Part shown: positions 61,953 through 63,882 of the stretch, one piece after another
How positions within the stretch are numbered: position 1 is the stretch's first letter
How the letters are laid out: every line of letters starts with the position of its first letter
Source of the DNA: Neisseria animaloris
GTDB lineage: Bacteria > Pseudomonadota > Gammaproteobacteria > Burkholderiales > Neisseriaceae
Length of the DNA stretch: 64,000 bases
Assembly (NCBI RefSeq): GCF_900637855.1
Contig: NZ_LR134440.1
Span: 248,001 to 312,000 of the forward strand
Direction: 5' to 3'
The notes under the pieces: model-generated
The model's input: the letters and a program-made list of their open reading frames with translations, nothing else
Databases searched by the model: none
Told to the model about the DNA's origin: nothing
Made by a program: the position numbers and the translations under genes

Positions 61953-62732
61953 TTACCAAGCCACAATATAAGTGATGCGGTAATTCAGCGGCAACATACC
62001 GTTTGGCGCGCGCATGTTTTCATAGGCCGTCTGAAAACGCTGCCAGCGGTTTTTACCGGTTAAGCCTTTGTTTTCGCGCTGTATCACATGGTTGGCACCG
62101 ATGTTTTTCAGGCTGTGCAGCAGGGCTTTGAGGGTGGGGAAATATTGGGTGTAGCTTTCGGTGTGTATGCGAATGTTTTGAAAACGGCAAAAGGCCGTCT
62201 GAATGTCGCTTTCGGTGAGAAAGCGGTTGACGTGCGCGCTTTCGTCGGCGGCCTGCCATGCCTGTTCGAGCTGTTGCAGGCTGCCTGCGCTAACGGTAGC
62301 CACGGCCGCATAACCGCCGATACGGATCACGCGCCGCATTTCGGCGGCGGCGCGTTCGAGGTTGCACCATTGCAGGGCGAGGCTGCTGAAACAGGCATCC
62401 ATGCTGCCGCCCGCCAACGGCAGCGATTCGGCATCGGCGAGCAGGCAGCAGTCGGCGCGGCGGTGGCGGGTGATGTGGCGCAACATGCCTTCGGCCAAAT
62501 CGAGGGCAAGCACGTTTGCACCGCGACTGCGTATTTGTTCGCTGACCCAGCCGCTGCCCGCGCCGATGTCGGCAACGGTTTTGCGGTTGAGGCCGTCTGA
62601 AAAACGGCTTTCCAGAAGTTGCAGCAAACGCAGCCCGGCCTGTTGCTGGATGGCTGCCGATGCGTCGTAGCTTTCGGCCGCTTGGCTGAAGGCGCGGGCA
62701 ATGTGGTGTTTGGACGGGTTTTCAGACGGCAT
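61953..62732 (-). CDS. bioC: Malonyl-[ACP] O-methyltransferase
   Basis: A 259-residue SAM-dependent methyltransferase that starts pimeloyl synthesis for biotin. The SAM loop is VADIGAGSGWVSEQIRSRGA, and DACFSSLALQWCNLERAAAE is the family core. ATG 62732 and the first residues MPSEN are encoded by an uptake sequence (ATG CCG TCT GAA AAC) that also supplies the bioF stop. It overlaps bioF by 11 bases and is translationally coupled. bioG or bioH is not adjacent. Confidence 0.92.
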   Translation of the reverse strand: MPSENPSKHHIARAFSQAAESYDASAAIQQQAGLRLLQLLESRFSDGLNRKTVADIGAGSGWVSEQIRSRGANVLALDLAEGMLRHITRHRRADCCLLADAESLPLAGGSMDACFSSLALQWCNLERAAAEMRRVIRIGGYAAVATVSAGSLQQLEQAWQAADESAHVNRFLTESDIQTAFCRFQNIRIHTESYTQYFPTLKALLHSLKNIGANHVIQRENKGLTGKNRWQRFQTAYENMRAPNGMLPLNYRITYIVAW

Positions 62733-63882
62733 CTTGCAAGCCTTTGATTAATGTTTCGATATGCGTTGCGTCGTGGGCGGCGGTGAGGGTAATCCGCAGC
62801 CGTGCCTGCCCGACGGGTACGGTGGGCGGGCGGATGGCGGGCACATACAGGCCGTGCCTGCGCAGGGTAGTAGATGCGGATAAGGCCGCTTCGTTGCTGC
62901 CGCATAAAAAGGGCTGGATGGCGGTTTCAGACGGCATCAGGCGTTCCCGCAATCCGCATTCGGATAAGGCCGTCTGAAACAGGCGGATATTGCCGCACAG
63001 TTTTTCGCGCAAACCGTCGGCGGCACGAACGCGCTCCAAAGCAACAGACAGCGCGGCGGCTTGGGCGGGCGGAAAGGCGGTGCTGTAAATAAGGTGGCGG
63101 GCGAATTGGGTGAGGTATTCGGCTACGGTGCGGCTGCACAATACCGCCGCGCCCATCAGCCCGACCGCTTTGCCGAAGGTAACGATAAGTATGTTTGGCT
63201 GCACGCCTGCGACTGCCGCACTGCCGCGCCCTTCGCCGCCCAGCACGCCGATACCGTGCGCGTCGTCGAGCAGCAGCCATGCGCCGTATCGTCCGCACAG
63301 GCTTTTCAGACGGCCTAAGTCGGCGGTGTCGCCGTCCATGCTGAACACGCCTTCGCTGGCCACCAAGATTCTTTTGCCTGCATGTTCAATCAATTGCTTT
63401 TCCAAAACGTCGTATTGCCGATGGGCGAACCGCTTAAACTGCGCGGGGCCGAGAGCGGCGGCTTCCTGCATGGAAGCGTGGCAGAGTTTGTCGGCCAGCA
63501 GCACGTCGTCTTTGCCCAATAAACCGAGCAACACGGCTTGGTTGGCGGCGTAACCGCTGGGGAACAGGATGGCGCGTTCGTAGCCGAGCCAATCGGCCAA
63601 ACGGTTTTCCAACGTTTCGTGCGCATCGGTGTGGCCGCTAACCAAAGGCGAGCCGCCGCTGCCGGTGCCGTATTGCGCCAAAGCCTGCTGCCAGGCGGCG
63701 ATAACGGCAGGGTCGCGGCTCAAACCGAGATAATCGTTGCCGGCAAAGTTTAAATAGCGTTTGCCGCCGCTTTCGAGATACGGCGGTGCGGTATCGGCAC
63801 GGCGGGCGGTGCGGCGGCGGTAGGCTTGTTTGGCCGTTTGGCGGTCGAGCGCGGCTTGCAGGTGGTCGTTCCAGTTCATCAT
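62722..63882 (-). CDS. bioF: 8-amino-7-oxononanoate synthase
   Basis: A PLP enzyme of about 386 residues (from the MMNWNDHLQA start at 63882; 63879 is equally possible, and 63900 adds six residues). It joins pimeloyl-ACP or -CoA with alanine in biotin synthesis. Motifs are YLNFAGNDYLGLS, GSGGSPLVSGHTDAHETLEN, LLLDDAHGIGVLG and the Lys-bearing ILIVTFGKAVGLMGA. Several uptake sequences are in the coding region. The last codons GAT GCC GTC TGA lie in the uptake sequence shared with bioC. Confidence 0.95.
   Translation of the reverse strand: MMNWNDHLQAALDRQTAKQAYRRRTARRADTAPPYLESGGKRYLNFAGNDYLGLSRDPAVIAAWQQALAQYGTGSGGSPLVSGHTDAHETLENRLADWLGYERAILFPSGYAANQAVLLGLLGKDDVLLADKLCHASMQEAAALGPAQFKRFAHRQYDVLEKQLIEHAGKRILVASEGVFSMDGDTADLGRLKSLCGRYGAWLLLDDAHGIGVLGGEGRGSAAVAGVQPNILIVTFGKAVGLMGAAVLCSRTVAEYLTQFARHLIYSTAFPPAQAAALSVALERVRAADGLREKLCGNIRLFQTALSECGLRERLMPSETAIQPFLCGSNEAALSASTTLRRHGLYVPAIRPPTVPVGQARLRITLTAAHDATHIETLIKGLQDAV

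Follow-up and report, generated by a model that had tools for sequence, protein, structure and literature searches.

Can a single repeat serve at once as an uptake signal, as the end of one gene and as the beginning of the next, and if so, what holds its letters in place? The question is raised by the junction between bioF and bioC in the window (the whole 64-kb stretch of DNA that was analysed), where one DNA uptake sequence (DUS) lies across the stop codon of the first gene and the start codon of the second.

Anatomy of the bioF-bioC junction

The upstream gene, bioF (62722..63882, minus strand), encodes an 8-amino-7-oxononanoate synthase of 386 aa, and the downstream gene, bioC (61953..62732, minus strand), a malonyl-ACP O-methyltransferase of 259 aa. 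Both assignments are based on open reading frames and on profile scores that passed the curated cut-offs: 436.6 bits for BioF against TIGR00858 (cut-off 426.45), with a further match to PF00155, and 209.6 bits for BioC against TIGR02072 (cut-off 184.95). The minus-strand sequence across the junction reads ...CTTGCAAGATGCCGTCTGAAAACCC..., in which bioF ends with GAT GCC GTC TGA (TGA at 62724-62722) and bioC begins with ATG CCG TCT GAA AAC (MPSEN; ATG at 62732-62730). The bioC ATG sits inside bioF in another frame, which makes this a stop-start overlap, and the two genes share 11 nt (62722..62732, minus strand). These 11 nt plus one base make up the AT-spelled DUS ATGCCGTCTGAA (62721..62732, minus strand), whose core, GCCGTCTGAA, is exact at 62721-62730. 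Both coding roles fit the same bases because the AT-DUS holds an ATG and, 8 bases on and in the other frame, a TGA (ATGnnnnnTGA). The original prediction had read the junction in the same way, as one repeat carrying the bioF stop and the bioC start in an 11-base overlap, and the minus-strand sequence, the open reading frames and the profile scores bear it out; its position needs correcting, since 62722-62733 spells GATGCCGTCTGA and the true 12-mer lies at 62721-62732.

A possible weak Shine-Dalgarno sequence, AAAGG (62741..62745, minus strand), is located inside bioF, 8 bases 5' of the bioC ATG. A second AT-spelled DUS (62926..62937, minus strand) lies in frame within bioF, where it codes for MPSE. 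Between 61953 and 63882 on the minus strand there are four uptake cores in bioC, counting the junction copy, and three more in bioF; with four cores in 780 nt, bioC ranks with the densest genes in a set of 404 called, the average being 0.47 per kb of coding DNA.

Spelling of the uptake sequence in the host genome

The window holds 73 copies of the core, where shuffled sequences give 0.10. In the host genome as a whole, 2631 copies carry the AG prefix and 144 the AT prefix, so that an AG or AT copy is met roughly every 0.84 kb; in the window, AT-prefixed copies are 4 of the 73 cores. Dialects named in the passages of Frye 2013 (PMC3630211) considered here are the AT-, AG-, AG-muc- and TG-wad-DUS and the simDUS. 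The junction copy is not in the host's own AG dialect but in the minor AT spelling. As the AG consensus AGGCCGTCTGAA cannot be a start codon, the coding role picks the AT spelling at the junction.

The original prediction also assigned the repeat three roles. Both coding roles are read directly in the sequence, whereas the uptake role of this copy is one that we infer from the dialect of the genome and from a published transformation of N. elongata. In Table 1 of that study (PMC3630211), N. elongata, an AG-dialect species, was transformed with AT-DUS DNA, at an AG:AT frequency ratio of 1.39 with large standard deviations; by analogy with this tabulated result, the AT copy at the junction likely still works. 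With its uptake role taken in this sense, the bioF-bioC junction is a genuine three-role junction, whose parts are ordinary and whose combination is rare.

The bioF-bioC junction in relatives

We searched 83 genomes of the family, 16 of which have this bioF adjoining bioC: 12 genus members, including the host genome, and 4 genomes outside the genus. Exact ATGCCGTCTGAA together with the 11-nt overlap is found in 8 of the 12 genus members (G000, G053, G035, G019, G052, G018, G042 and G010). In G046, which holds 3215 AG copies, the junction differs by one base (ATGCCATCTGAA), and the 11-nt overlap is present in 9 of the 12. The other genus members overlap without a DUS, by 14 nt in G041 and G038, which have ATGCC at the same place, and by 29 nt in G049; G041 and G049 are nevertheless DUS-rich, with 1942 and 2549 AG copies. 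Outside the genus, the simDUS genome G054 has a 2-nt gap between the genes and no DUS, and G005, G006 and G008, with neither AG nor AT copies, overlap by 17, 17 and 23 nt without a DUS. A further 14 BioF-like loci (at most 41% identity; G055 and G056 were left out) were read and showed no stop-start DUS. The original prediction held that finding the same junction in relatives without AGGCCGTCTGAA would count against it; at bioF-bioC no such relative was seen, the four genomes outside the genus being without the junction.

Where the 11-nt overlap is present (nine genomes), parsimony places a single change in the 12 DUS columns; the 60 columns upstream hold 76 and the 24 downstream hold 48 (gap-free columns only). 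BioC residues past MPSE are variable. In G010, an alternative in-frame ATG lies 42 nt upstream of the bioC start.

According to the original prediction, the uptake sequence came first and was then recruited to make the coding junction. Part of that proposal stands: ATG and TGA both lie within the repeat, the spelling is exact in eight genus members and, as described below, a second junction follows the dialect of its genome. G010, which branches deepest within the genus in the BioF+BioC tree (weak support, 69/73), also carries the junction. The order of events is a different matter. The same gene pair overlaps by 14-29 nt without a DUS, ATGCC stands at the same place without a DUS in G041 and G038, and overlaps without any DUS occur in 6 of the 16 genomes (G041, G038, G049, G005, G006 and G008). 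Moreover, the tree does not separate gain from loss, the genus backbone being weak (69/73 at the deepest fork). Together with the start-codon counts given below, this leaves recruitment of a pre-existing repeat very unlikely. The relation is better put in direction-free wording, namely that the coding overlap and the DUS hold the bases together.

At E <= 1e-40 this bioF is missing from all four mucDUS genomes, and the simDUS genome G054 has the 2-nt gap, so that no dialect switch is visible at bioF-bioC among the genomes read. At the same threshold, 23 of 46 genus genomes are without a bioF match. In the wadDUS genomes G048 and G013 (L133, L134), a BioF-like gene ends within TGCCTGTCTGAA, where the DUS of that dialect gives a stop codon only. 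In the AT-dialect genomes G027 and G022 (L137, L138), a distantly related bioF is followed, without a DUS at the junction, by a short gene that is presumably of the BioG/BioH kind.

A second junction at a FecCD permease pair

A second DUS that is both stop and start was found in the sample of G027, between two FecCD permease genes (PF01032, 213 and 165 bits) preceded by a periplasmic binding protein gene and followed by an ABC ATPase gene; this locus is probably the fet siderophore operon. The downstream permease was matched in 59 genomes and 50 junctions were read, the other 9 being distant (at most 39% identity). An in-frame ATG at -11 is present in 27 of 33 genus members, each of which has a DUS at that position, spelled ATGCCGTCTGAA in 23 and ATGTCGTCTGAA in 4. 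The genomes with ATGCCGTCTGAA comprise 6 of the AT dialect and 15 of the AG dialect, that is, 21 of 21 canonical-dialect genomes with the 11-nt overlap, plus G009 and G036. The genomes with ATGTCGTCTGAA (G014, G026, G031 and G034) are exactly the four mucDUS genomes, which hold 2487, 2854, 2995 and 2833 copies of AGGTCGTCTGAA, against at most 334 in each of the other 79 of the 83 genomes. Since these four form a single clade (100/100) nested among ATGCCGTCTGAA genomes, the C to T change goes with the change of dialect. The switch is one event on one branch that makes up 3.4% of the ingroup tree length, and it alters both proteins, A to V upstream (HAV to HVV) and P to S downstream (MPSE to MSSE).

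Conservation of the peptide MPSE, needed by BioC and by the permease, with the DNA merely following, would account for its presence, among genus members with the 11-nt overlap, in all 9 BioC proteins and in 23 of the 27 permeases. The permeases of the mucDUS genomes, however, have MSSE and that of G081 has MLPE, each following its dialect; BioC and the permease belong to unrelated families, and MPSE is absent from the BioC of G041, G038 and G054. We therefore regard a conserved peptide as extremely improbable.

Outside the genus, G081, where the simDUS AGGCTGCCTGAA occurs 1018 times and its core 1707 times, has ATGCTGCCTGAA at the permease junction, with another in-frame ATG 9 nt upstream. G076, a member of genus g10 with 696 simDUS copies, has ATGCTGCCTGAC, one base off, and its upstream frame covers only 202 codons in the stretch. 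No permease overlap was found outside the genus in G065, G066 and G082. Six genus members are also without the overlap: G020, G039 and G037, and G023, G050 and G051, in which a different gene lies nearest upstream of the permease. G020 has lost the start ATG and kept core and stop (ACGCCGTCTGAA).

Two genomes carry an off-dialect permease junction: G009, with 1164 copies of AGGCCGTCTGCA, and G036, a wadDUS genome with 1920 copies. At this locus G036 and G018 are 95% identical over about 3 kb, and G036 may, to judge from this identity, have acquired it from near G018. The circumstance that the original prediction set against itself thus has two sides here: in the six AT-dialect genomes ATGCCGTCTGAA is the uptake sequence itself, but in G009 and G036 the same spelling stands in an off-dialect genome.

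Dialects that can spell a stop-start junction

The pattern ATGnnnnnTGA fits the canonical, muc and sim cores and, from their known spellings, the king and eik cores. In the wadDUS, an inserted T puts TGA in frame with ATG, which leaves no stop-start, and TGA is absent from the G009 spelling, GCCGTCTGCA. Where the dialect permits the overlap, the permease junction agrees with it in 26 of 27 genomes (21 canonical, 4 muc and G081), the miss being G076 by one base, and where it forbids the overlap agreement is 0 of 2 (G009 and G036); the 26 of 27 is scored per genome, and the independent events are few, with one muc switch and one sim lineage. A dialect-matched junction was the outcome that the original prediction looked for, and within these few events the permease pair speaks in its favour. 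We consider this dialect agreement the strongest new point of the analysis.

G009 (loci L335-L338) has 428 AG and 172 AT copies beside its 1164 of AGGCCGTCTGCA, a spelling that none of the other 45 genus genomes holds more than 99 times; G009 apparently has another uptake dialect, without TGA, that is not named in the passages of PMC3630211 considered here. An 11-nt overlap of another spelling, GTGCAGCCTGA followed by A, was seen in the AT-dialect genome G027 (L258, minus strand). Its core is identical to the kingDUS 10-mer.

A control genus and the permease start codon

The permease pair is found, with an ATG in the equivalent position, in 13 genomes of genus g10, whose junctions are spelled by 10 different 12-mers. 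Change in the 12 columns keeps pace there with the flanks, at 19 changes against 86 in 60 flanking coding columns. The 27 DUS genomes, whose selection by an ATG at -11 fixes columns 1-3, show 1 change in the 12 columns against 125 in the flanks (Fisher p = 1.4e-6 for the comparison with g10, descriptive only, as changes are non-independent). When G020, G039 and G037 (aligned stop, no ATG at -11) are added, the counts become 12 against 173 upstream (p = 0.003, to be read in the same descriptive way).

These counts bear on the possibility that the dual use is a coincidence of DUS density, a few copies having landed on stop-start overlaps and been frozen there by double coding alone. An AG or AT copy about every 0.84 kb offers many opportunities, AT copies stand at starts as often as ordinary ATGs or less (see below), and one stop-and-start copy was called in each of two sampled genomes and none in a third. 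Double coding alone, however, leaves the g10 permease overlap unfrozen, and the sole change in the 27 DUS genomes falls on the mucDUS branch and concerns the dialect letter. Coincidence followed by coding constraint is, in our judgement, unlikely.

The control has its own features. In the 12 g10 genomes other than G076, the five spellings counted (AG, AT, muc, wad and sim) do not rise above background, and in G072 (100 kb) and G067 (80 kb), the two g10 genomes scanned, no DUS-like 10-mer was top-ranked. Because g10 junctions include near-simDUS spellings, the probability of a chance match in G081 is not negligible, and g10 may represent decayed DUS instead of a genus that never had them. A second in-frame ATG lies 7 nt past the stop in 8 of the 13 g10 genomes, which makes the -11 start uncertain there.

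In none of the 27 DUS genomes was an upstream alternative permease start found; downstream, a further possible start codon lies within 75 nt in 25 of them. An arginine codon of the rare AGG type (2.6-5.9% of arginine codons in three genomes) forms a Shine-Dalgarno-like AGGA 9 nt before the ATG and is kept in 26 of the 27 (all but G024). The missing upstream alternative and the conserved AGG support, at the level of sequence, the DUS ATG as the predicted permease start in the genus.

Uptake sequences at start codons in general

Start codons were counted on gene calls from a simple hexamer model without curated annotation, so that the counts are approximate and may miss cases. In a 464-kb sample of the host genome (the window plus 20 stretches of 20 kb), 372 of 14,364 ATG triplets are called starts (2.6%). 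Among the 23 AT copies in this sample, one is a start and one, at bioF-bioC, is both stop and start, against 0.6 expected (p = 0.12), and the 547 AG copies include 6 stops and no starts. Among 96 of the genome's 144 AT copies there are 2 starts, 1 stop and start (bioF-bioC) and 2 stops, with about 2.5 starts expected. The 400-kb sample of the AT-dialect genome G027 contains 283 AT copies; 4 were called as starts, where 8.0 would be expected, and one of the 4 is also a stop. The hexamer finder called no DUS start or stop and start in a 400-kb sample of a mucDUS genome, a sample that includes the permease junction (L329), where the start was called 51 nt further on and the DUS counted at best as a stop.

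Uptake sequences are therefore not generally enriched at start codons (3 of 96 in the host genome and 4 of 283 against 8 in G027), and these counts do not support a general recruitment of DUS as starts. Among 29 called tandem overlaps in the host sample, 25 measure 1, 4 or 8 nt and 2 measure 11 nt.

Two more genes of the host genome were called with an AT-DUS start, at L175 position 1501 and on the minus strand of L156; one begins MPSEKKFPQ... (383 aa) and the other MPSEHHPDT... (296 aa).

A probable joint hold on the junction

Considering both loci, maintenance by the uptake system and double coding probably act jointly to hold the junction bases. The ribosome would end bioF at the TGA and start, or re-start, bioC at the overlapping ATG, a predicted translational coupling. 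The same bases, as double-stranded DNA, would be read by the competence receptor ComP, as the literature on uptake suggests. The start codon would force the minor AT prefix in an AG-dialect genome, and the uptake system, through selection for uptake or through biased conversion after uptake, would keep the core in the dialect of the lineage, even where both proteins change as a result.

The different junction spellings of different dialects at the permease pair suggest that the uptake system can shape overlapping genes. We advance more tentatively, at somewhat less than an even chance, that a change of dialect carries its new letter into both overlapping genes at once, as in the A to V and P to S changes of the mucDUS genomes, that the uptake system thereby edits proteins, and that only dialects with ATG and TGA in different frames are tolerated at such junctions, so that stop-start junctions and dialects constrain each other.

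A doubly coding junction offers a compact setting for reading directly how uptake specificity pulls on coding DNA: most substitutions there affect a protein, orthologous genes are being compared and the dialect of each genome can be counted. Counted by events, the dialect agreements are few and make a lead for a genome-wide test instead of a proof.

Comparison with known systems

The ingredients of the bioF-bioC junction are known; the combination is new, and the independent events behind it are few. A literature search on DUS together with overlapping genes or translational coupling returned no paper on stop-start use, which tests absence from print weakly. Stop-start overlapping gene pairs, in which the downstream ATG precedes the upstream stop, occur in operons with translational coupling. 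The bioF-bioC overlap differs from these in being spelled by a genome-wide repeat and in its length of 11 nt, a length shared by 2 of 29 overlaps in the host sample. Inverted DUS pairs act as transcription terminators and are alike in giving the DUS a second, expression-related role; there, the role is played by an RNA hairpin formed from two intergenic, non-coding copies.

In N. meningitidis MC58, 30 genes start with the ATG of an uptake sequence (van Passel 2008, PMC2346458), as bioC does here. In the passages of that paper considered here, such starts are treated as possible misannotation, and stop-start double use and a comparison of dialects do not appear. Frye 2013 (PMC3630211), in the corresponding passages, notes that every DUS dialect except king3DUS has UGA in one frame. 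The same TGA ends bioF here; in those passages it is described as a limit on where a DUS can be placed, whereas at the bioF-bioC junction it forms half of a gene junction.
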